Part shown: in pieces, positions 3,570 through 18,088 of the stretch
Position numbering within the stretch: position 1 is the stretch's first letter
Layout: each line of letters starts with the position of its first letter
Program-made: the position numbers and the translations under genes
The notes under the pieces: generated by a model
Told to the model about the DNA's origin: nothing
What the model saw: the letters and a program-made list of their open reading frames with translations, nothing else
Databases searched by the model: none
IMG/VR virus record: IMGVR_UViG_3300003324_000461
Location: 1 to 24,992 of that record
Direction: 5' to 3' (one strand)
Length of the DNA: 24,992 nucleotides
Origin: a virus

Positions 3570-3578
3570 CCGAACCTA
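3570..3578 (+). promoter_or_regulatory. CCGAAYCTA start-associated element, copy 1
   Basis: CCGAACCTA lies 4 bases (ACGT) before GTG 3583, in the short gap after the stop of the 3357 gene. It is the first of seven copies that all sit 4-5 bases before a start codon. It does not match the usual Shine-Dalgarno sequence. Confidence 0.7.
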
Positions 3579-3582
3579 ACGT

Positions 3583-3771
3583 GTGCGTGCTCGTCACCGC
3601 CGCCGGATCCACCTCACCGTAGCGCTGCTCTGGCTCGGCCCCGGCGCCGCCGCCAGCATCGTCTGGGCCCGGTCGGTCGCCTGGGTCGTCGCCATGTCCT
3701 GGTTCGCCTGCTGGTACGCGGCGATCAGCGCCTGGGCGGCGGAGACGCCGGTCGAGGAAGAAGACGGCTGA
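3583..3771 (+). CDS. Small membrane protein, two predicted transmembrane helices
   Basis: This 62-aa protein starts with a basic stretch (MRARHRRRIH), followed by two hydrophobic segments (residues about 11-30, including TVALLWLGPGAAASIVWA, and about 32-52, including VAWVVAMSWFACWYAA) and an acidic tail (VEEEDG). A positive N-terminus with two spans fits a small inner-membrane protein; a holin is possible because a peptidase gene is two genes on, but nothing proves it. GTG 3583 is chosen over GTG 3581, whose frame stops after 13 codons. It follows the first CCGAACCTA element, and its stop overlaps the next ATG (TGATG). Confidence 0.6.
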   Translation: MRARHRRRIHLTVALLWLGPGAAASIVWARSVAWVVAMSWFACWYAAISAWAAETPVEEEDG

Positions 3772-4100
3772 TGGTGTTCGGCCCCTACCCGGGGATCGTC
3801 GACAAGGTCGTCGACGGCGACACGATCCACGCCCGGCTGGACCTCGGGTTCGACCTGACCGTCTACGCCCGCTGCCGCGTGTTCGGGATCAACGCGCCCG
3901 AGCTCTCAACGGACGCGGGCAAGCAGGCCCGCATGTACGCGGAATCGCTCGTCCCGCCCGGCACGGAGGTGCGGGTGCTGTCGCACGGGTGGGACAAGTA
4001 CGGCGGCCGCGTCGACGCGCAGATCGCGTTCGGGGCCGGCTACGCCAGGGACCTCGCGACCGAGATGCTCGTCGCCGGGCAGGCGGTCGTGTACCCGTGA
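3771..4100 (+). CDS. Staphylococcal nuclease-like (SNase) protein
   Basis: This 109-aa protein has the thermonuclease core: VVDGDTIHA (residues 13-21), CRVFGINAPE (35-44) and WDKYGGRVDA (74-83). These match the metal-binding DGDT, the catalytic Arg-(x)n-Glu and the second Arg of S. aureus nuclease. The residue in the place of Asp40 is Asn41 (INAPE instead of IDTPE), so metal binding may be altered, although the two Arg (36, 80) and Glu44 are kept. There is no signal peptide. A role in host DNA breakdown or recombination is inferred from the family. It overlaps the genes on both sides (TGATG at the start, GTGA at the end). Confidence 0.85.
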   Translation: MVFGPYPGIVDKVVDGDTIHARLDLGFDLTVYARCRVFGINAPELSTDAGKQARMYAESLVPPGTEVRVLSHGWDKYGGRVDAQIAFGAGYARDLATEMLVAGQAVVYP

Positions 4101-4810
4101 AGCAGCTCCGGCGGATCGGGGAGCACGACCCGAAGGCGGGCGGGGCGGGCCGTCTCGGCCGCCACGTCGAGCACGACCAGCGCAGCCGCCGCTACGCGGC
4201 CGCCGTCTCGGACGCCCCGCTGCAGCGGATCCGGCACAAGCGTCACGGCCACGTCTTCGACCAGGGCAGCGTCGGCTCGTGCACCGGCAACGCGGTCGCC
4301 GGCGCCTGCAACACCGAGCCGCTCCACCGACGCTACGGGCGGCTGCTCCTGGAGCGCGACGCGGTCGCCGTCTACGCGATGGCAACCAAGCTGGACGGGT
4401 TCCCCGGCGAATGGCCGCCCGACGACACCGGCTCGTCAGGGCTCGCCGCCTGCAAGGCCGCCGTAGAGCTCGGGTTCCTCACCGGCTACCAGCACGCGTT
4501 CGGCGTCGACCACGCGTTGCAAGCGCTGCAGCTCGGCCCGGTCGTGACCGGGATCGACTGGTACGACGGTTTCGACCGGCCCGACCATCACGGCAAGGTC
4601 GAGATCGCCGGCGAGGTCCGCGGCGGCCACGAGGTGCTCGTCGTCGGCTACCACCCCGCCCCGTCGGGGGCTCCGCTCGACGCGCTGGTCGAGTGCTGGA
4701 ACAGCTGGGGGCCGGGCTGGGGCCGGTTCGGCCGGTTCACGTTCACCGTCCGCACCTGGGGGTCGCTGCTCGAACGTGACGGCGACGTGACGGTGCCGAT
4801 CCGCGCGTGA
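4097..4810 (+). CDS. Papain-like (C1A) cysteine peptidase
   Basis: This 237-aa protein has all four catalytic elements of C1 peptidases: oxyanion Gln56 and catalytic Cys62 in FDQGSVGSCTGNA, catalytic His178 in GGHEVLVVGY, and Asn202 in CWNSWGPGWG. The PPDDTGSSGLAACKAA stretch and the GPVVTGIDWYDGF stretch belong to a family I know from actinobacterial phages. There is no secretion signal and no obvious pro-peptide, so it probably acts in the host cytoplasm or is carried in the virion. Its place next to a small membrane protein allows a role in lysis, but cleavage of phage or host proteins fits equally well. The start is GTG 4097 in a GTGA overlap; an in-frame extension further upstream is rejected because it overlaps the nuclease gene. 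Confidence 0.9.
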   Translation: MKQLRRIGEHDPKAGGAGRLGRHVEHDQRSRRYAAAVSDAPLQRIRHKRHGHVFDQGSVGSCTGNAVAGACNTEPLHRRYGRLLLERDAVAVYAMATKLDGFPGEWPPDDTGSSGLAACKAAVELGFLTGYQHAFGVDHALQALQLGPVVTGIDWYDGFDRPDHHGKVEIAGEVRGGHEVLVVGYHPAPSGAPLDALVECWNSWGPGWGRFGRFTFTVRTWGSLLERDGDVTVPIRA

Positions 4811-5019
4811 CGATGGCGACGGTGCGGGAGGAGGCGCTCCGGATCAGCCGGCTCCCGATCCCGGAGGGGGCGGCCGAGTGGGAGCGGCTCCGTGACGAGA
4901 CGCTCGCGCTCCCCGACGGCGACGAGAAGACGAGCCGGCTGGCGTTCAACGCGCTGCTCGCGACCGAGCTGCGGCGGCTGGCGATGCCGATGCTCAAGGC
5001 GCGCCCGCCCGGCTGCTGA
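4807..5019 (+). CDS. Small helical protein just before the large terminase gene
   Basis: This 70-aa, all-helical, charged protein starts at GTG 4807 in a GTGA overlap and ends in a TGATG overlap with the large terminase gene. Key stretches are REEALRISRLPIPEGAAEW and DEKTSRLAFNALLATELRRL. There is no HTH or Cys motif. Its position directly before the terminase gene suggests a packaging accessory protein or even a reduced small terminase subunit, but I do not recognise a family. Confidence 0.6.
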   Translation: MTMATVREEALRISRLPIPEGAAEWERLRDETLALPDGDEKTSRLAFNALLATELRRLAMPMLKARPPGC

Positions 5020-6773
5020 TGGCCGGCCTCGCCGAGGCGGCGGCGGCGGCCGCGCGCGAGCTCGAGCTCCGGTTCGCGGCCGAGGAGCAGCGCCAGATCG
5101 AGCTGACCGCACAGGAGCGGTGGGCGCGCGACCCGGTCGGCTGGATCAACCAGCACGTGTGGATCGCGAGCGTGTTCGCCGACGACGGCATCCGCCGCCG
5201 CGTCAGGCCGATCCGGATGCGCCTGTTCCCCGATCAGGAGCGCACGATCGGCGCCTGGATCGACCTCGACCAGCTCGCCGCAGCGGGGGAGCTGCGGTTC
5301 CGGAACGTGGTGATCGAGAAGTCGCGCCAGATCGGGGAGACGTGGCTGTTCGCCGCCGTCATCTGCTGGATCCTGCTCCACCATCGCGTCGTCGGCGGCG
5401 CGCTTCACACGAACGGGAACGAGATCGACGATGGCGGCGAGCGGAACACACTCAAGAGCCTGTTCGGGAAGGTCCGCTACATCGCCGACCGCGTCGACCG
5501 TGATCGCGCGCCCGGCCTCGGCCGGCTGCGGTTCTGGCCGCTGTCGAACCAGGGGCCGGCGAAGATCGAGAACCTGCAGACCGGGTCGATCGTCTACGGG
5601 GAGGGGCAGAAGGATTCGCCGTTCCGCGGCTCCACGCTCGACTACGCGCTGATCGACGAGGCGGCGTTCGTCCGGCACGGCGAGCTCGTCCACGGCGCGA
5701 TCGACGACGCCTGCCCGGCCGGGAAGGCGTACCTGTCGACCGTGAACGGCGACGACAACGTGCACGCCCGCCTCGCCGACCAGGAGCCCGAGGGGTGGAC
5801 GTATCTGCGGCTGCACTGGTCGACGCACCCGGTGTACGGGCAAGGCGTCCACGTCGCCGGCGACGACCCCGGCTGCGCGCTCTGCGCCGGCGTCCTCGCC
5901 GGGCTCGACTGGACGCCGCGCGCGCCGGTCGCGCACCGCTACCCCGGCAAGCTCACCTCCCCCTGGTACGACCAGGCGGTGATCGGCAAGACCGACGAGC
6001 AGGTCGCCCGCGAGCTCGACATCGACCGTGAAGCAGCGCTCACCGCCCGCGTCTACAGCGAGTTCCAGACCGAACGCCACGTCGTCCCCGAGGGGATCAG
6101 GTACGACCCGGCGCTGCCGGTCGAGTTCGCCTGGGACTTCGGCCTCGACGTCACCGCGGTGGTCGTGCTGCAGGACGCGCCGCGCGAGCTGAACGCGATC
6201 GGGCTGCTCGAGGTCGGCGACCGTGTCGGCACGACCGCCACCCCCGAGCTCGTGGCGGCCGCGCTCCGCGAGCTGCTGCTCCGCCTCGGCGTCCCGGCCC
6301 GCGAGACGACACCGTTTTGGACGTTGAAGATGCAGGGCTACGGTGACCCGTCGGGCGAGTACGGGCGCACCACGGGACCCTCCGAGTTCATCGCGTACCG
6401 CCGGCAGGGGTTCTCGATCATCGGGCCGCCGCGACACCTGCAGCGCGTCGAGACGACGATCGCGGCGGTGAAGCGGCTGCTGCTCGGCACCCCTAAGCCG
6501 CTCCGGATCTGCGGCGTGAACGCCGCCGAGCTCGCCCGCCACTTCCGAAACAACCGTTGGCCCGTCGACCCGTACTCGGGGAACCGGCGGAAGGGTTCGA
6601 CCAGGCCGGAGGACGACATCCACAACCACGCGCTGCGGGCGCTCGCCTACTACGCGGTCGCGAAGTTCCCGCCGCCGGTCGAGCACGACCCGGAGTTCGA
6701 CGGTGCCGCCGGCCGGTCGCCGCACCGCCGCCGTGACGGGGTCGGCGACGTCCGCTACGACATGCCGCTCTAG
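5019..6773 (+). CDS. terL: Terminase large subunit (Mu gp28-like packaging ATPase and nuclease)
   Basis: This 584-aa protein starts at ATG 5019 in a TGATG overlap. The ATPase domain has the terminase-type P-loop EKSRQIGETW (residues about 100-109, Lys101) and a Walker B LIDEAAF with Asp213 and Glu214. The C-terminal RNase H-like nuclease shows FAWDFGLDVTAVVVL (first acidic residue), YGDPSGEYG, and DDIHNHALRALAYYA with the last acidic pair. It pumps DNA into the prohead through the portal encoded next and cuts the concatemer. Its length is normal for the family. After the stop there is a 20-bp gap holding the second CCGAACCTA element. Confidence 0.93.
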   Translation: MAGLAEAAAAAARELELRFAAEEQRQIELTAQERWARDPVGWINQHVWIASVFADDGIRRRVRPIRMRLFPDQERTIGAWIDLDQLAAAGELRFRNVVIEKSRQIGETWLFAAVICWILLHHRVVGGALHTNGNEIDDGGERNTLKSLFGKVRYIADRVDRDRAPGLGRLRFWPLSNQGPAKIENLQTGSIVYGEGQKDSPFRGSTLDYALIDEAAFVRHGELVHGAIDDACPAGKAYLSTVNGDDNVHARLADQEPEGWTYLRLHWSTHPVYGQGVHVAGDDPGCALCAGVLAGLDWTPRAPVAHRYPGKLTSPWYDQAVIGKTDEQVARELDIDREAALTARVYSEFQTERHVVPEGIRYDPALPVEFAWDFGLDVTAVVVLQDAPRELNAIGLLEVGDRVGTTATPELVAAALRELLLRLGVPARETTPFWTLKMQGYGDPSGEYGRTTGPSEFIAYRRQGFSIIGPPRHLQRVETTIAAVKRLLLGTPKPLRICGVNAAELARHFRNNRWPVDPYSGNRRKGSTRPEDDIHNHALRALAYYAVAKFPPPVEHDPEFDGAAGRSPHRRRDGVGDVRYDMPL

Positions 6774-6779
6774 GCGGAG

Positions 6780-6788
6780 CCGAACCTA
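6780..6788 (+). promoter_or_regulatory. CCGAAYCTA start-associated element, copy 2
   Basis: CCGAACCTA lies 5 bases (GGATC) before GTG 6794 of the portal gene, in the gap after the terminase stop. There is no Shine-Dalgarno sequence in this gap. Confidence 0.75.
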
Positions 6789-6793
6789 GGATC

Positions 6794-8161
6794 GTGCGCC
6801 TGCTCGGCCTCGACATCACACGCCGCAACGCCACCGCCACCGCGCCGCCGCGCGGCGAGTACGGCACCGACCGGGAATGGTGGGCCGCCCAGTACGAGGC
6901 GGGCGGCCCCGACATCAACCCCGTCCTCTCCGGGCAGGCGAAGTACGACGTCTACGACGAGATGGCGCTCACAGACAGCGTGGTCAAGAGCCTGCTGTGG
7001 ATGCAGAGGCTGCCGATCCGGGGCGCCACCTGGGAGCTCGACCCCGCCTCGGAGGACGGGCAGGATCTCCTCGTCCGGGACGTGGTCGCCCGCAACCTCG
7101 GCGTCGGCGACTGGGAAGGCGACGGGCACCTCGCGGCCCCGTGGCCGCGGCAGCTCGACCAGGCGCTGCTCGCGCTGCGGTGGGGGTCGATGCTGGAGGA
7201 GCTCGTCTGGGACGACCCCGTCCGCTGGGACTTCGACGGCACCAGTCGGCTCGTCAGGCCGCTCGCCCGGCTCGCGCCCCGGCCGCCGCGCACCGTCAGG
7301 AAGATCGAGTTCGACCAAGGGCGGATCCGCCGGGTCGAGCAGAACCTCTCCCAGACCAGGCCGATCCCGGGGGACAAGCTCGCGTTCACGGTGCTCGACG
7401 AGGAGCCGGGCCGCTGGGAGGGCGTGTCCCTGCTCCGGGCCGCCTGGGGGCCGTGGGCGTTGAAGAAGCAGCTGATGATCGCGGCCGGGATCGCCTGGGA
7501 CCGGTGGGCGGCCGGGATCCCGGTCGTCCGCTACCCGACCAACGGCAGCGCCGCCGACCTCGAGAAGGCGGAGGAGATCGGCCGGTCGATCCGCACGCAT
7601 GAGCGCGCCTACGTCGCGTTCGAGGGGCCGGAGCCGACCCCTGACAACCCGAACGGGTGGAGCCTCCAGATCGAGGGCGGCGCGAGCGTGCTCCCCGACC
7701 CGGTCAATCTGCTGCAACGCTACGACCTCTACGTCCTCGCCGCCGGGCTGCAGCAGTTCATGGCGCTCGGCTCGACCCAGTCCGGTTCCAGGGCGGTGGC
7801 GGAGGTGCAGGACGAGCCGTTCTACATGGCGGTCGAGGCGATCGCCGGCGACCTCGCCGCCCAACGGCAGCAGCAGGTGATCCGCCGCATCGTCGACGTC
7901 AACTTCGGCACCGAGTACGAGGCGCCGAAGCTGCGGGTCGCGAAGATCCAGTCGGAGGACGTCGAGAAGCTCGCCCGCATCCTCGCCGACCTGCAGCAGG
8001 CCGGCTTCACGTTCAGCGACCGCGACGTCCAGAACTACGTGCGCGGGCTGAACCGGCTGCCGGAGCTGCCCGAGGCGCCGCTGCCGCCGGAGACGGTCGT
8101 GCAGCCGGAAGGCGGGGGTCTGCCGCCGGCGCCACCCGACCAGGGAGCGGCAGCGGCATGA
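6794..8161 (+). CDS. Portal protein (Mu gp29 / DUF935-like)
   Basis: This 455-aa protein has features of the DUF935/Mu gp29 portal family: ALTDSVVKSLLWMQRLPIRG near the N-terminus, the crown/stem region around GDKLAFTVLDEEPGRWEG and SLLRAAWGPWALKKQ, and a C-terminal helix with AGLQQFMALGSTQSGSRA and QQQVIRRIVDVNFG. It should form the dodecameric ring at the head vertex. Its position straight after the large terminase is the classic order. The last 30 residues are Pro/Gly-rich and probably disordered. GTG 6794 is the only sensible start, five bases after a CCGAACCTA element. Its stop overlaps the next ATG (ATGA). Confidence 0.9.
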   Translation: MRLLGLDITRRNATATAPPRGEYGTDREWWAAQYEAGGPDINPVLSGQAKYDVYDEMALTDSVVKSLLWMQRLPIRGATWELDPASEDGQDLLVRDVVARNLGVGDWEGDGHLAAPWPRQLDQALLALRWGSMLEELVWDDPVRWDFDGTSRLVRPLARLAPRPPRTVRKIEFDQGRIRRVEQNLSQTRPIPGDKLAFTVLDEEPGRWEGVSLLRAAWGPWALKKQLMIAAGIAWDRWAAGIPVVRYPTNGSAADLEKAEEIGRSIRTHERAYVAFEGPEPTPDNPNGWSLQIEGGASVLPDPVNLLQRYDLYVLAAGLQQFMALGSTQSGSRAVAEVQDEPFYMAVEAIAGDLAAQRQQQVIRRIVDVNFGTEYEAPKLRVAKIQSEDVEKLARILADLQQAGFTFSDRDVQNYVRGLNRLPELPEAPLPPETVVQPEGGGLPPAPPDQGAAAA

Positions 8162-8388
8162 CCGAGAGGCGCGACGACCGCGCCGACCGGATCCGCCGGT
8201 GGCGCGAGCTGCACGAGCAGGGCCGCGCCGCCGAGGCAGCCGACGTCGTCCGCGAGCTCGAGGGCGACGAGATCCCGGCGGCGCTGCTCTCCGACATCGC
8301 AGATGCGCCCGTGCTCGACGAGCGAGCGATCCGGAGCGGCGCCCGCACCTGGAAGCCGCACTCCTGGCGCGCGCACCGGCCGTCGTGA
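8158..8388 (+). CDS. Small charged hypothetical protein, 76 aa
   Basis: The start is ATG 8158 in an ATGA overlap with the portal gene; in-frame upstream extension lies wholly inside the portal gene and is rejected. The protein is helical and rich in Arg, Glu and Asp (RRWRELHEQGRAAEAADVV), with a short C-terminal Trp/His segment. No known motif is visible. An 8-codon frame, GTG 8385 to TGA 8411, overlaps its stop and bridges toward the next gene. Confidence 0.5.
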   Translation: MTERRDDRADRIRRWRELHEQGRAAEAADVVRELEGDEIPAALLSDIADAPVLDERAIRSGARTWKPHSWRAHRPS

Positions 8389-8414
8389 ACGGGAGCCAGG
8401 CAGCCGGCTGAGCG

Positions 8415-9002
8415 ATGGCGCACTGGGGGTTCCGCGACGGCGAGGTGCCCGCCTATGCGCGCTGCCCGGACTGCCGCCAGCTGCTGCGCGTAGACCGCCT
8501 CGACCTCGTGGCCGAGCATCGGGCGGCGCGACATGGGCGGCCGCTGCCGAATCTGGAGGCGACGATGCTGCACCTGGTCAAGCACGCCGACAAGACCGGC
8601 CCCGAACCGGCCCGCAACCACCCCGACAAGACCGGCGCCCTCCCCAGCGACGAGCTCCCGGCCGGGGCGCTGCTCGAGCCGTGGCCGCTCGACCGGGTCG
8701 AGCTCGTCGGCGACCCGCCGGCGGAGCACAACTTCTCCGACAGCTTCGTCGCCCGGGCCCTCGCCGACGGCTACCTCGAGTTCACGAACCCGCGCGCCGC
8801 CAGCAGCCCCGTCCCGCCCGGCGTCTCCGCCTACCCCAGGGACCCGGTGATCACCGGCGACGAGATCGTGCTCCACCTCCACGGCGGCCCGCTCCGCTAC
8901 ACGATCCTCGAGCCGCCCGGCAAGTACCCCGACGACACGGAGCCGTCCGGGTGGCGCGTCTCGCACGAGTACCGCTGCCGGCTCGCCAAGGCGAAGGGCT
9001 GA
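8415..9002 (+). CDS. Hypothetical protein with N-terminal zinc-finger-like motif
   Basis: This 195-aa protein has CPDC (residues 17-20) followed by EHRAARH (about 34-40), a C2H2-like spacing that could bind one zinc. A short repeat follows (HADKTGPEPARNH and HPDKTGALP). The C-terminal half is mixed alpha/beta with no recognised fold. It lies among head genes, so a virion or assembly role is likely but not shown. A second in-frame ATG at 8565 follows a GGAGG and a near match to the start element (CCGAATCTG), so a shorter product lacking the finger is possible. It lies 26 bp after the previous CDS. Confidence 0.55.
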   Translation: MAHWGFRDGEVPAYARCPDCRQLLRVDRLDLVAEHRAARHGRPLPNLEATMLHLVKHADKTGPEPARNHPDKTGALPSDELPAGALLEPWPLDRVELVGDPPAEHNFSDSFVARALADGYLEFTNPRAASSPVPPGVSAYPRDPVITGDEIVLHLHGGPLRYTILEPPGKYPDDTEPSGWRVSHEYRCRLAKAKG

Positions 9003-9011
9003 GAGCCCGCG

Positions 9012-9452: not shown

Positions 9453-9458
9453 GCGCCG

Positions 9459-9701
9459 ATGCGGTTCGGCTCCTGGTGGGCCGTCCAGCCGGGCCGCGAA
9501 CGGCTCCTAGAGCTCGGCGTGCACGTGGAGCCGCGGCGGCGGCGCACAAACAAGGGCGTCCGGTACGGCCCCTACCTAGACCTGCACCTGCCGGGGGTGT
9601 GCATGAGCGTCGGCCGCAACCCGATCTACGCGGGCGAGGCCGACTTGAAGGCGAGCACGAGCCGAGGGGGTGTCAGTGGCGACGCTGACGCAGGCTGCTG
9701 A
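9459..9701 (+). CDS. Small hypothetical protein, 80 aa
   Basis: The protein begins MRFGSWWAVQPGRERLLELG and has an Arg-rich turn (EPRRRRTNKGVRYGPY). Third-position G+C is high up to about 9665. The last 10 residues read out of frame through the start of the next gene, giving an overlap of about 32 bp, so the gene end may be fortuitous. No family is recognised. It sits between two beta-rich virion-type genes and may be co-translated with them. Confidence 0.5.
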   Translation: MRFGSWWAVQPGRERLLELGVHVEPRRRRTNKGVRYGPYLDLHLPGVCMSVGRNPIYAGEADLKASTSRGGVSGDADAGC

Positions 9702-11946
9702 CCGGCACACGGCGGTCACGACCGGCTGGACGAACCCGGGCAACGCGTTCGCGGCGGCGGGCGACAACGTCTACGCGACGGCCGCCCCCGCCAAGAACGC
9801 GACCGTCAACGGCGACTTCGGGTTCCCCGCCTTGAGCCTGCCTCCGGGCTCGACGATCCAGGCGGTCCGGCTGGTCGTCGAGTGGGGGATGACGGCCGCC
9901 GTCAACGGCGGCACCCTAGGCGTGCAGGGGCGCAACAACAACGTCGCCGACTCAGCGGCTGAGGTGACGCAGACCTCGACCGCGGAGGCCCAGTCCACGT
10001 TCGCGTTCGGCACGCTCCCGTCGCTCGCGGACCTGAAGACGGCGGGTCGTGTCGTCGGCCGGGTCCGCTGCTCGAAGGGCAACACGAACACGGCGATGAC
10101 CGGCCAGCTCGACTTCGTCCGGCTCGAGGTCGACTACACGCCGCCGACCGCCAACCAGGCGCTCGAAACCGACCTGGCGCAGCCGATCACGAGGGCGAAG
10201 TCGAAGCAGATCGGGCAGGCGAGCGAGCAAGACGCCGCGCGCCCCGTAGCGCGCCTCCTCCCCCCGGTCAGCGCGAACTTCGAGGCGGGCACCCTGGGCG
10301 CCACGATCGCGACGACCGACCCGGGCGGCGCCACCCCGTTCGACGTCGTCACCGTCGGCGTCGGCCAGGCGCTCGTCTACGGTGGCGAGCACCCGGCACG
10401 CGGCAGCCTCTCCGCGAAAGTGACACAGACCGGCTCCGGCGCCGTCTCCCGTGCCGGATGGACAACAAGGTTCGGGCGCCGGTTGGAGCACACCGGCCGC
10501 GTCTACCTGTACCTGACGGCGCTCCCGACGGGTGACAGCATCCGGTTCGCCCAGATCACCTCCGGCGGCGTGCTCGTCGTCGAGCTGCAGATCCTCACGA
10601 CCGGCGTGGTCCGTGCGATCCGTTCCGGCGCGTTCGTCGACACCAGCTCTACGGTCGCGACCGGCCAGCTGATCCGGATCGAGTACCGGATCGTCCACGA
10701 CACCGTCAACGGCCAGGTCGAGATCAAGCTGTTCAACAGCCCGGACAGCACGACACCGACCGAGACGGCGACGAGCCCGGCGAACAAGGACACCGGCGCC
10801 TACGCGGACGCCGTCTACTTCGGCAACAACGGTGGCGCCGCCGCCGCGACCTGGTGGCTCGACGAGGTCTACGCCGGCGGCACCTCCTACCCGGGCCCGG
10901 CGCCCGCTACCACGGTCGGGCAGGCGCTCGAAACCGACGCGGCGCAGCCGGTCAGCCGGTCGAAGCTACGCACGATCGGCCAGGCCACCGAGACAAGCCT
11001 CGCCCAGACGATCACGAAAGCCTCAGGCCACACCGTCACCGTCGGACAAGCGGCCGAGACCGACGTGGCGGAGCCGTTCACGGCACGGAAGACCCGCACC
11101 ATCGGCCAGCCGGCGGAAGCCTCGACCGCGCAGCCGGCCGGCCGTGTGAAGGCACGCACCATCGGCCAGACGGCCGAGACGAGCAGCTCGCAGCCGGTCA
11201 CGCGCTCGAAGCGTCGCACCCTCGGACAGCCGCTGGAGACGTCGACGAGCCAGCCCGCCACGAGACGCAAGACCCGCGCGGTCGGCCAGCCAGTGGAGAC
11301 CGACACAGCCCAGCAGGTGAGGCCGGCGCACGCGCGCACGATCGGCCAGGCCACCGAGACCGACAGCGCGCTCGCGGCCACCCACCGGAAGGCCCGCACG
11401 CTCGGCCAGGCGCTCGAGACGAGCCTCGCCCGCCTCACCGGCCGCATCAAGACCCGCCCCGCAGGGCAGGCCGCGGAGACGGACACGTCGCAGCCTGTGA
11501 GCTCGAGCGGCCACATCCTCACCGTCGGCCAGACCGTCGACACCCAGACCGCCCAGCCGGTCGGCCGGTCGAAGACCCACGCCGCCGGGCAGGCCGCCGA
11601 GACGGACACCGGCCAGCCGATCCGTCCCGCCCACTCGAAGACGATCGGCCAGGCCGCCGAGACGCAGCTCGCCACCGCGCTGGGCCGGGCGAAGCGGCTG
11701 CTCGTCGGCCTCGCCACCGAAACCTCAGCCGCCCTCACGGCCGTCGCCGCGAAGCTCCGCCCCGCAGGGCAGGCCACGGAGACCGACCTGGCGCAGACCG
11801 TCACCGTCGCCGGGCTCGTCGTCCCCGGCACCGTCACCCTCGCAAGCCGCGCCCGCACCGAGCTGACGCTCTCGACCCGCGCCGCCACCGTCACCCTCGG
11901 AACCCGTCCCCTGGCCGAGCTGGGGCTCGGCAGCCGCCGAACCTAG
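9670..11946 (+). CDS. Large virion protein with LamG-like domain and 20-residue tandem repeats
   Basis: This 758-aa protein starts at GTG 9670 (GTG 9676 is equally possible), just after GAGGGGG. Residues 1-156 form a beta-sandwich ending LDFVRLEVDYTPP. Two copies of a GQAxETDxAQP repeat follow. Residues about 200-408 look like a LamG/concanavalin-type jelly roll (RVYLYLTALPTGDSIRFAQI, ending TWWLDEVYAGG). From about 10909 to 11815 there are some 15 more copies of a 20-residue unit, consensus RTIGQAxETDxAQPVxRxKx. The tail is a short hydrophobic/Thr-rich beta segment. Likely roles are a head fibre, capsid decoration or host-binding protein, given its place between portal and capsid genes. Its TAG stop lies within a CCGAACCTA element. 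Confidence 0.7.
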   Translation: MSVATLTQAADRHTAVTTGWTNPGNAFAAAGDNVYATAAPAKNATVNGDFGFPALSLPPGSTIQAVRLVVEWGMTAAVNGGTLGVQGRNNNVADSAAEVTQTSTAEAQSTFAFGTLPSLADLKTAGRVVGRVRCSKGNTNTAMTGQLDFVRLEVDYTPPTANQALETDLAQPITRAKSKQIGQASEQDAARPVARLLPPVSANFEAGTLGATIATTDPGGATPFDVVTVGVGQALVYGGEHPARGSLSAKVTQTGSGAVSRAGWTTRFGRRLEHTGRVYLYLTALPTGDSIRFAQITSGGVLVVELQILTTGVVRAIRSGAFVDTSSTVATGQLIRIEYRIVHDTVNGQVEIKLFNSPDSTTPTETATSPANKDTGAYADAVYFGNNGGAAAATWWLDEVYAGGTSYPGPAPATTVGQALETDAAQPVSRSKLRTIGQATETSLAQTITKASGHTVTVGQAAETDVAEPFTARKTRTIGQPAEASTAQPAGRVKARTIGQTAETSSSQPVTRSKRRTLGQPLETSTSQPATRRKTRAVGQPVETDTAQQVRPAHARTIGQATETDSALAATHRKARTLGQALETSLARLTGRIKTRPAGQAAETDTSQPVSSSGHILTVGQTVDTQTAQPVGRSKTHAAGQAAETDTGQPIRPAHSKTIGQAAETQLATALGRAKRLLVGLATETSAALTAVAAKLRPAGQATETDLAQTVTVAGLVVPGTVTLASRARTELTLSTRAATVTLGTRPLAELGLGSRRT
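10909..11815 (+). repeat. About 15 tandem copies of a 60-bp (20-aa) coding repeat
   Basis: Successive units read GQALETDAAQPV, GQATETSLAQTI, GQAAETDVAEPF and so on, mostly spaced by 20 codons, with some units carrying 2-3 extra residues. The copies have diverged in sequence but keep GQ, ET/ED and the basic linker. Two further copies lie near 10150-10250, before the LamG-like domain. Confidence 0.85.
11937..11945 (+). promoter_or_regulatory. CCGAAYCTA start-associated element, copy 3
   Basis: CCGAACCTA lies 4 bases (GACC) before GTG 11950. The TAG stop of the repeat protein is formed by the element's last two bases plus the next G, so the element was kept even where it overlaps coding sequence. 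Confidence 0.75.
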
Positions 11947-11949
11947 ACC

Positions 11950-12228
11950 GTGCCAGGCAGCTACGACATCGGCGACGTCATCGTCCTCACCCTCACCTTC
12001 AAGGTCTCCGGTGTCCTCACCGACCCCGACGCGGCGACCGCCTACGTCGAGGAGCCCAACGGCACCGTGACCACGATCCCCGCCGCCCGCGTCACGACCG
12101 GCGTCTGGGAAGCGAGCTTCACGCCCGTCCAGGCGGGCGAGCACTGGTGGCGCGGCCAAGGCACCGGCGCAGCCCAGGCAGCCGGCGAGGACTACTTCAC
12201 CGTCCGCGAGCAGCGCGTCACCCCGTGA
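11950..12228 (+). CDS. Small Ig-like beta-sandwich structural protein
   Basis: This 92-aa protein has a typical small phage beta-sandwich layout: YDIGDVIVLTLTFKVSG, then TAYVEEPNGTVTTI, then GVWEASFTPVQAGEHWWRG and a YFTVRE end. Such proteins lie in head-gene clusters of many actinobacterial phages and are usually annotated as structural or head-fibre-like. It has no Cys and no signal peptide. GTG 11950 follows the third CCGAACCTA element. Its stop overlaps the next GTG (GTGA). Confidence 0.65.
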   Translation: MPGSYDIGDVIVLTLTFKVSGVLTDPDAATAYVEEPNGTVTTIPAARVTTGVWEASFTPVQAGEHWWRGQGTGAAQAAGEDYFTVREQRVTP

Positions 12229-12941
12229 CCGCCGTGGCGGGCTGGTCCCGGCTGGAGCTGCGGATCGGCCGGCGGCTCACCGCCGCCGAGCAGCACATCG
12301 CAGTGGAAGAGATCGACCGCCTGCTCAACACGGCGAAGGACGAGCTCGAGCAGGAGATCCAGGCGGAGCAGGCGCGTGTCGCCCGCGCGATCGCCCGCCG
12401 CCAAGGCGGCCGCGCCGTCCTGCAGGCGACTCCGGAGATGCGCCGGATCCTCCGCGACCTCCGGGCCGCCGGGCGCGCGCACGCGCTCGCCGAGCTCAGC
12501 TCGATGGGCTACCCGGTGCCCGGTCGCGCCTACGAGCAGCCGCCCGACTGGTGGGCCGGCATCCTCGACTCACGGCTCGCCGACGTCACCGTCCGCGTGC
12601 ACGCGGAGGCGGTCGGGTTGGACTTCGGCACGATCGCCCAGCAGGCGATCATCCGGGCTCTCCGCCGCGTCAAGGGCGCCCGGTTCGCCGCCGCCGACCT
12701 CGTCTCGCCGGTGTTCGTGTCCGGCCTCGCCGACACGTTCGAGCAGCACGCAGATCTCGTCACGGCCTGGCAGTACACGGCGGTGAACGACTCCGGCCTC
12801 TGCGACGTGTGCGCGCCCTGGGACGGCCACGTCTTCGCCTCCCTCGACGCGCTGTTCGAGGTGCTGCCGGACTTCGGGCCGAATCCTGAGTGTCTCGGTG
12901 GCCGCCGCTGCCGCTGCCGCGCCGTCCCCGTCCCGGCATGA
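12225..12941 (+). CDS. Minor head protein (Mu gpF / SPP1 gp7-like morphogenesis protein)
   Basis: This 238-aa protein has an N-terminal long helical region (residues 15-75) and a C-terminal head-morphogenesis domain: TAWQYTAVNDSGLCDVCAPW, then DGHVF, then PNPECLGGRRCRCRAV. The Cys pairs and the 'D..C..C...G' layout are those of SPP1 gp7/Mu gpF-type proteins, which bind the portal and act early in head assembly. The start is GTG 12225 in a GTGA overlap; the longer upstream open frame is a shadow of the repeat protein. Its stop overlaps the next ATG (ATGA). Confidence 0.8.
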   Translation: MTAVAGWSRLELRIGRRLTAAEQHIAVEEIDRLLNTAKDELEQEIQAEQARVARAIARRQGGRAVLQATPEMRRILRDLRAAGRAHALAELSSMGYPVPGRAYEQPPDWWAGILDSRLADVTVRVHAEAVGLDFGTIAQQAIIRALRRVKGARFAAADLVSPVFVSGLADTFEQHADLVTAWQYTAVNDSGLCDVCAPWDGHVFASLDALFEVLPDFGPNPECLGGRRCRCRAVPVPA

Positions 12942-13408
12942 GCGACTACATCACGATCAGGCTGACCGGCGACGACGAGCTCGACCGGAAGCTCCGGCAG
13001 CTCGAGTTGTTCCTCAACGATCTGCGCCCGTTCTGGCCGCTGCTGCTGCCGGTGTTCATCGGCTGGATGCGCGTCCAGTTCGAGACGGAGGGCGGCTGGG
13101 GCGGCCACACGTGGGCGCCGCTCTCCCCCACCTATGCGGCGTGGAAGGCCACCCGCTATCCGGGCCGGACGATCCTGATCCGGGAGGGTGTGCTGCGACG
13201 GGCGGCGAGCGAGCCGCGCCGCGAGGCGACACCACGGACGCTCACCCTCTGGATCGACGACCCGAAGGTCGCCTACCACCAGGACGGCACCGAGCGGATG
13301 CCGGCCAGGCCGCTGATCCCGGAGCGGCTCCCGGCCGGGGCGCGCCGCGACGTCGAGGAGACCGCGACCGAGTACGCGAACGAGCTGATCCGCCGGCTCC
13401 GCCTCTGA
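12938..13408 (+). CDS. Virion morphogenesis / tail completion protein (Mu gpG-like)
   Basis: This 156-aa protein resembles the phage virion morphogenesis family (PF05069): a helical N-terminus (DELDRKLRQLELFL), then the diagnostic GGWGGHTWAPLSPTYAAWK stretch, then RTILIREGVLRRAAS, a short beta region and MPARPLIPERLP. Members act at the head-tail joint or in tail completion. ATG 12938 is chosen because it forms an ATGA overlap; a GTG at 12890 would run inside the minor head gene. After its stop comes a 15-bp gap with the fourth start element. Confidence 0.8.
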   Translation: MSDYITIRLTGDDELDRKLRQLELFLNDLRPFWPLLLPVFIGWMRVQFETEGGWGGHTWAPLSPTYAAWKATRYPGRTILIREGVLRRAASEPRREATPRTLTLWIDDPKVAYHQDGTERMPARPLIPERLPAGARRDVEETATEYANELIRRLRL

Positions 13409-13410
13409 GG

Positions 13411-13419
13411 CCGAACCTA
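13411..13419 (+). promoter_or_regulatory. CCGAAYCTA start-associated element, copy 4
   Basis: CCGAACCTA lies 4 bases (ACGC) before GTG 13424. It occupies most of the gap between two head-tail genes, with no Shine-Dalgarno sequence. Confidence 0.75.
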
Positions 13420-13423
13420 ACGC

Positions 13424-13957
13424 GTGGATCTCTTCGCGCCGCGGATCCGGACGACGATCGCGAGCCTCCGCGACCAGCTGCCTGCCCGGGTCGCCGCGTT
13501 CAACGCGGAGGGCGGCGTCCAGCTCGACCCGGTCGCAGACGACGGCGGCGACCTCGAGCCGCCCCGGCCTGGCCTCGGCTACGTGTTCGGCGGCCTGCCC
13601 CGCTACGGCGGCGGCGAGTTCCCGGTGGTCGAGGTCGCGATCCCCGACGCGGTGCTCGAGAACCTGACGATCGACCAGTACGACGGAGACCTCGGCTCCA
13701 GCCTCGTCGTCGCGGTCTGGGCGGGCCGCACCGCCGGCGAGGACTTCCCTGTCCTCTACGAGAAGGTGCTCGGCTACGCGCGCTGCCTCACCGAGGTGCT
13801 CTTGGTGCCGGACGCGGTGTTCCCGTCTGAGGAGGTGCAGCGGGTGCGGTTCGCGTTCGCCGCGAACCCGGACCAGCGGGACCGGTCGGAGATGGAGACG
13901 TTCACGTTCGGCGGCTACTTGTTCCTCACCGTCGCCGGGGTGGAGCAGCGCCCCTGA
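13424..13957 (+). CDS. Head-tail connector or tail terminator-like protein
   Basis: This 177-aa mixed alpha/beta protein begins with a helix (RIRTTIASLRDQLPARVAAF). Central strands follow (EFPVVEVAIPDAVLENLTID, then SSLVVAVWAGR), and it ends YLFLTVAGVEQRP. The fold order and position after the virion morphogenesis gene fit the tail terminator / minor capsid connector that joins head and tail in siphoviruses. Sequence motifs are weak, so this rests partly on context. GTG 13424 follows the fourth CCGAACCTA element. Confidence 0.55.
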   Translation: MDLFAPRIRTTIASLRDQLPARVAAFNAEGGVQLDPVADDGGDLEPPRPGLGYVFGGLPRYGGGEFPVVEVAIPDAVLENLTIDQYDGDLGSSLVVAVWAGRTAGEDFPVLYEKVLGYARCLTEVLLVPDAVFPSEEVQRVRFAFAANPDQRDRSEMETFTFGGYLFLTVAGVEQRP

Positions 13958-13958
13958 T

Positions 13959-13967
13959 CCGAATCTA
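13959..13967 (+). promoter_or_regulatory. CCGAAYCTA start-associated element, copy 5
   Basis: CCGAATCTA lies 4 bases (GACC) before GTG 13972 of the protease gene. The spacer GACC is the same as at copy 3. Confidence 0.75.
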
Positions 13968-13971
13968 GACC

Positions 13972-15357
13972 GTGCCTGAGCTCGAGACGGTGGATATGCC
14001 CGACGTCGAGGTGCTCTCGACCGGCGGTCCCGTGCACGGCGTCGGCTCTCCGCCGGAGGGGGACTTCTGGACGCGAGAGCAGCTGGAGGCGATCGCCGCC
14101 GCCAACCGGGCGCTCGCCGCCGAGATCAAGGCGCCGAACAAGATCGGCCACTCGGACGCGCAGACTCTGGTGAAGAACAGCGCCCTCGCGGTACCCACGC
14201 CGGGGGAGATGCCGGCGGTCGGCTGGCTCGACGGTGCCACCGCGCGCGTCGTCGACGACCCCGACACGGGCGGCGCGAAGCTGGTCATGGACGCGAGGGC
14301 TGTCCCGAAGAAGTTCGCGCAACTCGTCAAGGTGGGCGCCTACCGCACGCGGTCGGCCGAGCTGTCCCGCGTCACCTCTCAGGTGACGCAGAAAGCGTAC
14401 GACTGGGTCGTCACCGGGCTTGCGTGGCTCGGAGCGAAGCTGCCTGCCGTCCAGACGCTCGACGACGTCGTCGCGCTGTACGAGCGCGCCGAGCTTCCCC
14501 GGCCGCCGGACGTTCGCGCGTTCGTCGTCTACGCCGCCGAGGGGCAACTCGTGTGGGAACCGGGCGAGAGCTTCGGGTCGCTCAGAGACGCGGTCGCGCG
14601 GGCATTGAACGGGCCGCCGACCGGCGGCATGAACGAGCCGCGGTTCTGGGTGTCGGACGTGAACGTCGCCGGCGACAAGGCGCTCGCCATGGACTACTAC
14701 GACGAGAGTCGCACCGCCTACGTGATCCCCTTCGCCCGCGACGCGAACGGCGAGGTCACGCTCTCGCCGTCGAGCGACTGGACGCGCGCCGAGGAAGGCT
14801 GGATCGCAGTCGCGAAGGAGTACGCACGCGTTTTCGCGGCTGCTGCCGAATCTACCCCGATGCCACGGTTCGAGTTCACCGACGAGCAGCTCGCGGCGCT
14901 CCGCGAGAAGCTCGGCGTCGAGGGCGACCTGACCGAGGACGCGATCACGGCGGCCGTCGACGCCCGCGCGAACGAGCTCGCCGAGGCCACCCGGAAGGCC
15001 GAGGAGGCGGAGACCCGCAAGAACGAGGCCGACGAGCAGCGCCGCGAGTTCGAGCAGGTGAAGGCGAAGGCCGAAGCCGCCGAGCAGCGCCTGTTCGAGA
15101 TGGCGCGGGACACCGACATCGAGAAGGCGACCCGGGAGGGGCGCCTCGACCCGGCAGACGTCGAGAAGTGGGAGAAGCGGTACGAGACCCTCGGCCCCGA
15201 CCAGGCGCGCGAGCTGCTGTTCGAGCTGCCGGTCGTCGAGGAGCGCGTCCGCGAGCTCGGCCGCGAAGGCGACCCGGGCGAGGCGGACGAGGTCACGAAG
15301 AGCTACGAGGCCGAGATCGCCCGCAACACGGGCGTCCCGGTGGAGGAGCTGATCTAG
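13972..15357 (+). CDS. Prohead protease with C-terminal scaffold (Mu protein I-like)
   Basis: This 461-aa protein matches the Mu I-protease pattern: FWTREQLEAIAAANRALAAE, then APNKIGHSD (His60), PAVGWLDG, YRTRSAELSR and a GLAWLGAKLPAV stretch. Residues about 180-290 form an inserted beta-rich domain (RAFVVYAAEGQLVWEP, then WIAVAKEYA). From residue 297 the protein becomes a charged coiled-coil, typical of an internal scaffold that is cut away as the capsid matures. The second part can also be made alone (see 14860). It precedes the decoration and capsid genes in the expected order. GTG 13972 follows the fifth start element. Confidence 0.85.
   Translation: MPELETVDMPDVEVLSTGGPVHGVGSPPEGDFWTREQLEAIAAANRALAAEIKAPNKIGHSDAQTLVKNSALAVPTPGEMPAVGWLDGATARVVDDPDTGGAKLVMDARAVPKKFAQLVKVGAYRTRSAELSRVTSQVTQKAYDWVVTGLAWLGAKLPAVQTLDDVVALYERAELPRPPDVRAFVVYAAEGQLVWEPGESFGSLRDAVARALNGPPTGGMNEPRFWVSDVNVAGDKALAMDYYDESRTAYVIPFARDANGEVTLSPSSDWTRAEEGWIAVAKEYARVFAAAAESTPMPRFEFTDEQLAALREKLGVEGDLTEDAITAAVDARANELAEATRKAEEAETRKNEADEQRREFEQVKAKAEAAEQRLFEMARDTDIEKATREGRLDPADVEKWEKRYETLGPDQARELLFELPVVEERVRELGREGDPGEADEVTKSYEAEIARNTGVPVEELI
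14846..14854 (+). promoter_or_regulatory. CCGAAYCTA start-associated element, copy 6 (inside the protease gene)
   Basis: CCGAATCTA lies 5 bases (CCCCG) before an ATG that is in frame with the surrounding protease gene. It is the only copy found inside a coding region, and it marks the exact border between protease and coiled-coil scaffold. Confidence 0.75.
14860..15357 (+). CDS. Nested scaffold protein, internal in-frame start
   Basis: ATG 14860 is codon 297 of the protease gene and would give a 165-aa protein starting MPRFEFTDEQLAALREKLG. It is highly charged and helical, with a coiled-coil between about residues 40 and 90 (EATRKAEEAETRKNEADEQR and on), then a C-terminal VEKWEKRYETLGPDQ region. 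Nested scaffolds made from the 3' part of the protease gene are known in phage Mu (I/Z) and lambda (C/Nu3). Here the internal start is marked by the same CCGAATCTA element used before other genes, which is strong evidence for real use. Confidence 0.7.
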   Translation: MPRFEFTDEQLAALREKLGVEGDLTEDAITAAVDARANELAEATRKAEEAETRKNEADEQRREFEQVKAKAEAAEQRLFEMARDTDIEKATREGRLDPADVEKWEKRYETLGPDQARELLFELPVVEERVRELGREGDPGEADEVTKSYEAEIARNTGVPVEELI

Positions 15358-15358
15358 C

Positions 15359-15769
15359 GTGGCGATCACCGGCTCCCAGCAGCCCGTCTACTACCCCGGC
15401 TCGAAGCTCAGCTTCAAGAGCGCCGCCGCGATCACGAAGGGCCGCCTCGTCGAGATCACCGCCGCGAACACCGTCGGCCAGGCGGCCGCGAAGAGCCAGA
15501 AGGTCGTCGGCGTCGCGATGCAGAGCTGCGACGCGGCCGGCGACATCGTCGAGGTGCAGGTGCTCGGCTACGTCTTCAAGCTCACCGCCTCCGGCGCCAT
15601 CAGCGCCGGAGACGAGCTCGTCGCCGCGGCCAACGGGACGGTGCAGACGCAGGCCGCCGCCGCCGGCGCCACCGCCACCGACATCAACAACGCCCGCGCC
15701 GTCGTCGGGATCGCGCTCGAGGCGATCGCCGACACCGCCTCCGGGCGCGTCCTGGTGGGGAGGGCATAA
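15359..15769 (+). CDS. Capsid decoration protein (DUF2190-like)
   Basis: This 136-aa protein has a beta-barrel pattern with YYPGSKLSFKSAAAITKGRL near the start, then VVGVAMQSCDAAGDIVEVQV, SAGDELVAAANGTVQ and RAVVGIALEAIADTASGRVL. This is the layout of DUF2190/capsid cement proteins, which bind the outside of HK97-fold capsids as trimers. It starts at GTG 15359, one base after the protease stop, and lies directly before the major capsid gene, as in many phages with Mu-type head genes. Confidence 0.8.
   Translation: MAITGSQQPVYYPGSKLSFKSAAAITKGRLVEITAANTVGQAAAKSQKVVGVAMQSCDAAGDIVEVQVLGYVFKLTASGAISAGDELVAAANGTVQTQAAAAGATATDINNARAVVGIALEAIADTASGRVLVGRA
15757..15764 (+). promoter_or_regulatory. 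Strong Shine-Dalgarno site for the major capsid gene
   Basis: GGGGAGGG ends 8 bases before ATG 15773. It is the best conventional ribosome-binding site I see in the window, placed before the protein needed in most copies. It contrasts with the genes that use the CCGAAYCTA element. Confidence 0.7.
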
Positions 15770-15772
15770 GGG

Positions 15773-16714
15773 ATGCCGCAGGCAGGCGGATCGCCGACGC
15801 TGACCGTCCAGGCGCTGCTGAACCAGCCGACCCTGCTGTCGCGGGAGCTGGTCAACCTCGTCTACAAGCGGCTGATCGCCGACCAGCTGTTCGTGCGCGG
15901 CTCCGCCGACCAGGTCGCCGGCGGCGCGATGCGCTACCAGCAGTCCGAGTCGATCTTCGTCGACGACGACCCGGACGAGATCGCCGAGGGCGCCGACTTC
16001 CCGCTCACCGACTGGACGGAGGCGCTCAAGGTCGAGCCGGTCCGCCAGTACGGGTTCGGTGTCCGGATCACGAACCTCGCGATCCGCCGGAACCAGCGCG
16101 ACATGGTCGCCCGCGGCCAGCGGAAGCTCGCGAACAGGCTCGTGAAGTTCGTCGACACGAAGGCGATGGCCGTCCTCGAGGACGCGGGCGCCACCGCCGG
16201 GGTGCAGACGATGAACGCCTCCGCGGTCTGGACGACCGCGGGCACCGACATCATCGCCGACGTCGGCGCCGCCCAGGAGAAGATCGAGACCCAGGACAAC
16301 GGCTACAACGGGTTCGAGGGCGCGACGCTGGTGCTGCACACGAACATGCGGGACGCGCTGCTCAACAACACGGCGCTCCGCTCCGCGCTCCCCCGCGAGA
16401 CGCAGAACGGGCAGATCCAGACGGGGATGATGGCCCCGTTCCTCGGCCTCTCCCGGATCCTGTTCACGCCGCAGATCACCTCGACGAAGGCGCTGCTGCT
16501 CGACACGTCGATCGCCGGCACGATCGCCGACGAGCGGCCGGACGCCTCCGAGCGGTGGGTCAGCTACGACCCGGGCCCGAACTTCGCCCCGATCTACGTG
16601 AAGGTCGAGGACGACGGACGGCCGGCCGTGCACAAGCGGATCTACGCGGGCCGCTGGCCGGCGATCGCGCTGGTCGAGCCGAAGGCTGTCGTCCGGATCG
16701 ACGGGGTCGCGTGA
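15773..16714 (+). CDS. Major capsid protein (HK97-fold)
   Basis: This 313-aa protein has a capsid-type sequence: VQALLNQPTLLSRELVNLVY, then an E-loop-like region (SESIFVDDDPDEIAEGADF), a spine helix region (RNQRDMVARGQRKLANRLVK), NGYNGFEGATLVLHTNMRDA, and a P-domain end (RWPAIALVEPKAVVRIDGV). Position after protease, scaffold and decoration genes, normal length and a strong ribosome-binding site all agree. Because the scaffold is encoded separately, no N-terminal delta domain is needed and none is evident. It ends in a GTGATG overlap. Confidence 0.9.
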   Translation: MPQAGGSPTLTVQALLNQPTLLSRELVNLVYKRLIADQLFVRGSADQVAGGAMRYQQSESIFVDDDPDEIAEGADFPLTDWTEALKVEPVRQYGFGVRITNLAIRRNQRDMVARGQRKLANRLVKFVDTKAMAVLEDAGATAGVQTMNASAVWTTAGTDIIADVGAAQEKIETQDNGYNGFEGATLVLHTNMRDALLNNTALRSALPRETQNGQIQTGMMAPFLGLSRILFTPQITSTKALLLDTSIAGTIADERPDASERWVSYDPGPNFAPIYVKVEDDGRPAVHKRIYAGRWPAIALVEPKAVVRIDGVA

Positions 16715-17055
16715 TGAGCGAGACCGTGAAGGCTGTCGTCGTCGGCGTCGATACCTACCGGTGGGTCGACGAGAACGGAGCGATCCGGGAGGCGCAGCGG
16801 GGCGAGGAGATCCAGGTCTCCCAGGAGGAGTTCGACCGTGGCGGCGCTGCGCTCGAGAAGGCCGGGTCGAAGCGGGCGAAGGCCGCCGCCGGCGACCAGG
16901 ATGCCGAGCAGGCGGATGAGACGCCGACCGGGTATCCGCGCAGCCACGACGAGCTCGACAAGCTCGCCGAGAAGAACGACTTCTCGTTCGCCCAGCACGT
17001 GCGGACGCCGGACGAGAAGATCAAGGCGCTCGAGCAGGCCGGCATCCGGCCCTAG
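16714..17055 (+). CDS. Small acidic protein with C-terminal SAP/LEM-like helical motif
   Basis: This 113-aa protein starts at ATG 16714 (GTG 16711 is possible) overlapping the capsid stop. Residues 1-50 have a beta character (VKAVVVGVDTYRWVDENG), residues 50-78 are a charged linker (RAKAAAGDQDAEQADE), and the last 35 residues form a two-helix motif SHDELDKLAEKNDFSF with EKIKALEQAG. A similar motif occurs near the end of the 17588 protein. Proteins of this type often follow the capsid gene in actinobacterial phages and are thought to be head-associated; the exact role is unknown. Confidence 0.6.
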   Translation: MSETVKAVVVGVDTYRWVDENGAIREAQRGEEIQVSQEEFDRGGAALEKAGSKRAKAAAGDQDAEQADETPTGYPRSHDELDKLAEKNDFSFAQHVRTPDEKIKALEQAGIRP

Positions 17056-17070
17056 CCGCGGGGCGCCCTC

Positions 17071-17559
17071 GTGGCGTACGCGAACCTCTCGGCTGTCACC
17101 GCCCGCGCCGGCGCACTCGCACGCGCGTGGACGGCGGAGTCGGCGCCGTCGTTCAGCGATATCGAGGGGTTCCTCGACGACGTCGCCGCCGAGATCGACG
17201 CGCTCGTCGCCGCACGCGGCCTCACACCACCGCTGGCGGGGTCGGCGGCCGCGAACGCGCTCCGCGGCGTCAACGCCGACGGGGCGCTCGTGCTCGCGCT
17301 GGAGGCGACCTACCCGGAGACGTCGGGCCCGTCGTCGGCGGCGAAGACGCTCGACGATGCACGTCGCCGCTACGAGCAGGCGGTGGAGGCGCTCACCACC
17401 GGCACCCATCCGGCGGTGGCGGTGCTCGAAGCCTCGGCTGATGCGCCGTCGGCGACGTCGTTCTGGCAGCAGGAGCCCGGCTACGGGCAGCAGACACCGA
17501 CGACCGACGACCTCAACCCGTACACGGCGCCGGCGTTCGCCCGCGGCCAGCCGCTCTAA
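17071..17559 (+). CDS. Head-tail adaptor (gp6-like connector)
   Basis: This 162-aa helical protein contains the pattern of head-completion adaptors: SFSDIEGFLDDVAAEIDALV, AARGLTPPLAG, then a helix ending ALVLALEATYP and DDARRRYEQAVEALTTG. The last 35 residues are Pro/Gly/Gln-rich. These proteins bind beneath the portal to close the head. Position between capsid and tail genes supports this. GTG 17071 is 15 bp after the previous stop, with no evident ribosome-binding site. Confidence 0.65.
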   Translation: MAYANLSAVTARAGALARAWTAESAPSFSDIEGFLDDVAAEIDALVAARGLTPPLAGSAAANALRGVNADGALVLALEATYPETSGPSSAAKTLDDARRRYEQAVEALTTGTHPAVAVLEASADAPSATSFWQQEPGYGQQTPTTDDLNPYTAPAFARGQPL

Positions 17560-17573
17560 ACCGACGGCTGGTG

Positions 17574-17582
17574 CCGAATCTA
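17574..17582 (+). promoter_or_regulatory. CCGAAYCTA start-associated element, copy 7
   Basis: CCGAATCTA lies 5 bases (CAGCG) before ATG 17588, in a 28-bp gap after the adaptor gene. Confidence 0.75.
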
Positions 17583-17587
17583 CAGCG

Positions 17588-18088
17588 ATGGCGTCCGAGA
17601 CCGCGCTCGTCCTGACCCGTGAGGCCGCCGAGGCTGCCGGCCTCACCGGCGAGGGGCCGTTCCTGTTCCCCGGCTTCCCCGGCGTCTGGCAGGTCGGCCG
17701 GCCGCTCGCGATCCGCCACCTCGACCTCCCCACCGAGCACGAGGCCCGCGTACGGATGGCCGAGGTGTTCGGCGACCAGCAGCTGCTCGCCGTAACGAGC
17801 GCCGCCCCCGGGGACGCCGACCCGGAGGGGCTGCGCGGCGACAACCACGCGCCCTCCCAGGCCGAGCTCGACGCCGCGCGCGTCGACGACGCGGTCGACG
17901 CGAAGGCCGGCGGCCGCGTCTCCACCCACGCGGAGGCTGACAAGGTCGCCGCCGAGCTCGGGTTCGAGTTCCCGGCGGAGCCGCGGCCGAAGCTCGAGGC
18001 GAAAGTCGCCGTCATCGACCAGGTGCGCGCCGGCGCCGACCCCGGCCAGGCGCTCGCCCAGCTCACCGCCGAGGACGGGGAGGCGTAA
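17588..18088 (+). CDS. Hypothetical head-tail region protein, 166 aa
   Basis: ATG 17588 follows the seventh start element; the longer open frame upstream is a shadow of other genes. The N-terminal third has FLFPGFPGVWQVGRPLAI and a short beta region. The last 60 residues are helical and include THAEADKVAAELGFEFPAE, similar to the C-terminal motif of the 16714 protein. No enzyme motif is visible. Its place between the adaptor and the tail tube suggests a neck or connector role, inferred from context only. Confidence 0.55.
   Translation: MASETALVLTREAAEAAGLTGEGPFLFPGFPGVWQVGRPLAIRHLDLPTEHEARVRMAEVFGDQQLLAVTSAAPGDADPEGLRGDNHAPSQAELDAARVDDAVDAKAGGRVSTHAEADKVAAELGFEFPAEPRPKLEAKVAVIDQVRAGADPGQALAQLTAEDGEA

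Follow-up and report, generated by a model that had tools for sequence, protein, structure and literature searches.

Among the closest described systems is that of phage T4, in which gp55 (with gp33) is a phage-encoded sigma-like protein with a region-2 fold, and in which late promoters consist of a −10 element only. These promoters use TATAAATA, and the mRNAs they produce are leadered and carry Shine–Dalgarno (SD) sites. The gp55 protein is essential (PMC9429907). A sigma factor divided over two polypeptides is known from SigO and RsoA, where region 4 and region 2 belong to different proteins working as a pair (PMC8103513). Middle and late promoters of the Thermus phage P23-45 belong to an extended −10 class and show no dependence on a −35 element (PMC7403470). 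For mycobacterial leaderless genes, the RNA start falls on the ATG or GTG, the −10 element sits at its normal distance and no SD site is present; moreover, translation of leaderless RTG starts is efficient in these bacteria (PMC4633059). Finally, Cluster K mycobacteriophages carry Start-Associated Sequences (SAS), a short asymmetric word found just upstream of many start codons (PMC3203893), with the consensus GGGATAGGAGCCC and a location mostly outside the structural module (PMC12699233).

The sequence analysed here is a linear IMG/VR record of 24,992 bases (the window; about 71 % GC), in which a DnaB-type helicase gene at the left end is followed by packaging, head and tail genes on the + strand. 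A first-pass annotation had drawn attention to the 9-base word CCGAAYCTA shortly before seven start codons, and had expected fewer than one copy by chance. An exact search returned these seven copies and no others, all on the + strand, compared with a mean of 0.09 and a largest count of 2 in 100 dinucleotide shuffles of the window. The spacing of 4–5 nt that had been read by eye was likewise correct, the gap to the ATG or GTG being, in site order, 4, 5, 4, 4, 4, 5 and 5 nt (7/7 sites); as an RTG at either spacing has a chance of 0.035 per random + strand position, the probability for all seven is about 7 × 10−11. The first copy, CCGAACCTA at 3570..3578, lies 4 nt before GTG 3583 of a small ORF (3583–3771), and the second (CCGAACCTA, 6780..6788) lies 5 nt before GTG 6794 of the portal gene (6794–8161). 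The third (CCGAACCTA, 11937..11945), which overlaps the stop codon of ORF 9670–11946, is found 4 nt before GTG 11950 of ORF 11950–12228, and the fourth (CCGAACCTA, 13411..13419) 4 nt before GTG 13424 of ORF 13424–13957. The remaining three read CCGAATCTA and are located at 13959..13967, 4 nt before GTG 13972 of the head maturation protease gene (13972–15357); at 14846..14854, within that same gene, with the in-frame ATG 14860 following after 5 nt; and at 17574..17582, 5 nt before ATG 17588 of ORF 17588–18088. The sites at 6780, 13411, 13959 and 17574 are kept in relatives. Six copies do indeed stand in front of genes that have no overlap with their upstream neighbour, whilst the seventh, at 14846, belongs to an internal start of the protease ORF, the in-frame nature of which the first reading had left unspelled. 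From this start a nested scaffold-like protein would be read (14860–15357, + strand). The protein encoded by 13972–15357 matches head maturation proteases, with a Mu-like I match just above the cut-off, and ATG 14860 stands where genes of the Mu I/Z type have their nested scaffold start. The core of the word in the window is CGAAYCTA, with the first base of the 9-mer varying in relatives.

Capsid searches yielded L005 (81 % identity) and L006 to L012, as well as L013, which is a fragment within an Actinomycetota MAG. Searching with the terminase brought in L125, L126, L127, L129 and L133, and the longer relative contigs were taken in full length. The pattern was found at the same genes in 13 related IMG/VR contigs, giving 14 with the window, although these represent about 12 distinct phages and contig counts are not all independent (the sites of L006 and L007 are identical, as are those of L009 and L129 where they overlap). 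By counting words at a fixed distance before RTG, we identified the spelling used in each lineage: CGAAYCTA in the window, L005 and L125–L127; CGATACTC in L006, L007, L009, L012 and L129; CGATAGTA in L008 and L133; and CGACATTCG in L010 and L011. All lineage words share the invariant core CGANNNT. At orthologous places the word thus changes from lineage to lineage but is uniform within a genome, which fits a single trans-acting reader per phage. The signal had originally been called phage-specific, and rightly so; it is in fact specific to each phage lineage, and in this lineage-specific spelling it is kept before the same genes throughout the 14 contigs.

Across these contigs we counted 108 copies of the word. 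The late-gene strand carries 107 of them, and 91 of the 108 are followed by an ORF of ≥ 45 aa that starts 12–15 nt downstream (counted from the C of CGA). The word is therefore not common inside genes, and it is conserved at the same genes in related phages; the first-pass annotation would have given up its proposal had either been otherwise. Genes preceded by a copy in relatives include those for portal, neck and protease, together with the homologues of ORFs 13424 and 17588, and the internal scaffold start inside the capsid-protease gene is preceded by one in 14/14 contigs. More generally, copies precede packaging, head, tail and later genes, and all lie downstream of the sigma-like gene described below in 10/10 phages covering that region. 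By gene position, then, the word is restricted to late genes, with late being read from gene content. A megablast of the window against known phages gave no match, and this is a family without a close cultured relative in the collection searched. A search of 395 genomes of the class of the Actinomycetota MAG added one distant capsid. When IMG/VR was scanned for CGATACTCGGCCRTG, mostly single matches were returned besides these phages, and given the size of the collection these have the appearance of chance hits.

Over 57 sites, information is concentrated in the start codon and in the all-lineage consensus G-C-C-G-A-w-a-c-T-m-G. Columns further upstream were all at or below 0.2 bits, in keeping with the earlier remark that no −35-like block is visible, and the arrangement at these 57 sites is that of T4-type promoters, namely a conserved −10 element without a −35 element. 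In the three 8-nt word classes, base 12 (counted from the C of CGA) is a purine in 67 of 75 sites (62 G and 5 A). The start codon itself begins at base 12 in 52 cases and an ATG begins at base 13 in 15, every one of which (15/15) is preceded by G. As G before ATG is common anyway in these genomes (109 of 219 long ORFs), this purine pattern is supportive rather than decisive; it fits an RNA start at base 12, and the spacing together with the purine would be consistent with a 5′ end on the start codon. Words of the CGACATT class lie about 2 nt further from the start. SD-like 4-mers were found at 9 of 81 motif starts, which is below the background of 15 %, and at 8 of the 17 other starts in the window, some of which are uncertain. 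The absence of SD sites that characterizes leaderless genes is hence seen here (9/81 versus 15 %). An SD reading was rejected, in agreement with the first-pass annotation, by which the word is not an SD sequence.

Upstream of every copy, in all 10 phages covering the region, lies a pair of overlapping sigma-like genes. In the window, a sigma region-2-like ORF (2079–2849, + strand; domain at about 2241–2495) is suggested by a Pfam Sigma70_r2 match below the cut-off, an AlphaFold2 model and PDB fold matches; overlapping it in the +1 frame is an ORF for a region-4-like helix-turn-helix (HTH) protein (2497–2829, + strand), with a possible start at TTG 2497 and an ATG at 2461 that is likewise in frame. 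Weak Pfam matches to sigma-70 regions 2 and 4 were obtained for several of these phages. Those to Sigma70_r2 reached 15.2 bits for the window and 19.0 bits for the L006-type protein, below the curated cut-off of 24, whilst Sigma70_r4_2 scored 19.0 bits relative to a cut-off of 25.7, with other HTH families scoring alike. With a profile built on five phages, the region-2 protein was recovered from 5/5 further phages (E-values of 2.4 × 10−15 to 2.5 × 10−28). A PDB sequence search with the region-2 profile gave no sigma factor, and a search of 50,697 phage records gave no match to the region-2 protein. When the window's region-2 part was modelled with AlphaFold2, a three-helix core was predicted with confidence, and the fold matches of the model are mostly to sigma domain 2 (SigE, WhiG, sigma-28, SigA and T4 gp55), with superposition at an rmsd of about 2 Å over 65–72 residues. 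These matches are weak (Foldseek E-value of 0.47 at best, Z at most 7.3), and the region-4 model, although of good quality (pLDDT 87), matches generic HTH folds as well as ECF sigma-4. Given such modest values, the assignment to sigma rests on the consistency of the match list, the sub-threshold Pfam matches and the conserved partner.

Alignment of ten phages over both sigma-like parts placed the region-4-like part in the +1 frame in 10/10, and codon-position GC supports coding of region 2 in frame A and of region 4 in frame B. An ATG, GTG, TTG or CTG is present at the conserved first residue of the region-4 part in 8 of the 10, which favours two separate proteins rather than one; as G006 and G012 have no such codon, production of the region-4 part by a +1 frameshift is possible. 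In five phages, a conserved zinc-ribbon-like stretch follows the region-4 ORF and is again in the frame of region 2; in the window this C-terminal stretch occupies 2739–2843, in the frame of 2079–2849, and follows the pattern DCxxCGWR.Y..PNG.PGW. Located between the helicase and the sigma-like genes, 1333–2082 encodes an HTH protein resembling small terminase subunits (phrog_6299, E-value 1.5 × 10−6).

Our preferred reading, to which we assign a probability of roughly 70 %, is that the words are −10-only late promoters yielding leaderless or 1-nt-leader mRNAs and are read by a split sigma factor of the phage. The word, C followed by G-A-N-N-N-T, would constitute the −10 element of a late promoter that has no −35 element, and transcription would begin on a purine about 6 nt downstream of the final T. 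That purine would be the initial base of the start codon, or else the G immediately preceding an ATG. The resulting mRNAs would have no leader, or one of a single nucleotide, and would be translated without an SD site; the mRNA for the nested scaffold would begin within the protease gene, at a promoter of this kind, and some relatives would also transcribe a tRNA-Met from the same type of promoter. The reader would most likely be a phage sigma factor split into region-2 and region-4-like proteins from overlapping genes, produced ahead of the late genes and working with the host core RNA polymerase; in the window, the sigma-like genes carry no word of their own. Whilst the case for promoters as such is strong, it is from sequence that we infer an RNA start at the sites, recognition of the word by the sigma-like pair and joint action of its two proteins.

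With T4 gp55/gp33 this system would share a phage-encoded region-2-like protein, gp55 being among the fold matches, and −10-only late promoters; it differs in having a word that changes from lineage to lineage, an RNA start presumed to be at the start codon and, as second part, an HTH protein from an overlapping reading frame. SigO–RsoA is a cellular pair, whereas the pair proposed here is phage-encoded, overlaps in the +1 frame and may act jointly. Phage P23-45 relies on host sigma-A with gp39 and gp76, in place of the phage sigma-like pair proposed here, whilst mycobacterial leaderless genes use the host −10 rather than a different, lineage-specific word. The likeness to the Cluster K SAS is that both are conserved across related phages and lie mostly on one strand (PMC3203893); in contrast, the words here occur in the structural module and also before tRNA genes, and the SAS consensus GGGATAGGAGCCC was absent from them with up to 2 mismatches. 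None of the known systems that we found combines a phage late sigma factor, leaderless −10-only promoters and a lineage-specific word.

Recognition of the −10 element by the host is an unlikely but coherent alternative: an alternative sigma factor (e.g. sigma-28/WhiG-like), or a host polymerase remodelled by the phage, would read the word, and the phage sigma-like genes would be otherwise employed. The −10 of sigma-28/WhiG-like factors is GCCGATAA, which the consensus GCCGATAc resembles, and phages such as P23-45 steer the polymerase of the host towards promoters of the extended −10 class (PMC7403470). Nevertheless, a word that differs by lineage and is uniform in each genome is hard to reconcile with a host sigma factor, no TAAA-like −35 is present, and the phage sigma-like pair is always there.

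Improbable, by comparison, is the second of the two options that the first-pass annotation had left side by side, a translation-initiation element replacing the SD site and recognized by the ribosome or a phage factor. It would account for the tight spacing to start codons and for motif starts devoid of SD sites, and Cluster K phages possess a start-associated sequence whose role is unknown (PMC3203893). However, four copies lie directly 5′ of tRNA-Met genes (the distance from the C of CGA to the first tRNA base being 11 nt in L005, 16 nt in L008 and 12 nt in both L127 and L133), and as tRNAs are not translated this argues against a translation signal. Rfam confirms three of these four genes, and in L005 the 5′ end of the tRNA would fall one base short of the usual +1. 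In addition, base 12 is a purine even where the start codon is at 13, and the words vary by lineage, as the host ribosome should not. It is consequently the other option, a −10-like promoter for near-leaderless mRNAs, that is strongly favoured, on the strength of the tRNA-Met copies, the −10-like core, the lack of a −35, a presumed +1 that is mostly a purine and the sigma-like pair upstream. An RNA-processing site, at which a nuclease would cut a long transcript, would likewise put 5′ ends at start codons and near tRNA 5′ ends, but it leaves unexplained both the sigma-like pair in all ten covered phages and a −10-like core with invariant A and T, and is very improbable.

A more far-reaching picture, for which the chances seem about even, is of a two-protein sigma factor from genes that overlap in different frames, start-codon-locked −10-only promoters that also lie near tRNA 5′ ends, and a joint change of word by sigma factor and promoters on at least three occasions within the family. 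If the promoter and split-sigma reading is right, these phages would form a natural series, the specificity of a sigma factor having shifted along with that of about ten promoters per genome, and the residues that read the −10 element could be mapped by comparing lineages. Late expression would proceed with neither SD sites nor −35 elements, and a nested capsid scaffold would be expressed from a promoter of its own within the protease gene.

A number of smaller observations were made in the relatives. A tRNA-Met-like, CAT-bearing stretch begins 11 nt after the word in L125 (from 9353) and L126 (from 9194), with no tRNA-Met called there by ARAGORN or Rfam. In the 13424 homologue of L126, at 9438, an ATC occupies the usual place of the start, 12 nt after CGA, and is possibly a non-RTG leaderless start. 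Reverse-strand TAGAAT/TACAAT boxes are located upstream of the word in L005 (about 3200–3260), L008 (about 8230–8262) and L011 (about 4540–4570); they resemble ordinary host −10 elements, perhaps serving a reverse-strand gene. Tyrosine integrase genes are present on the contigs of L006, L127 and L133, and some of these phages are thus probably temperate.
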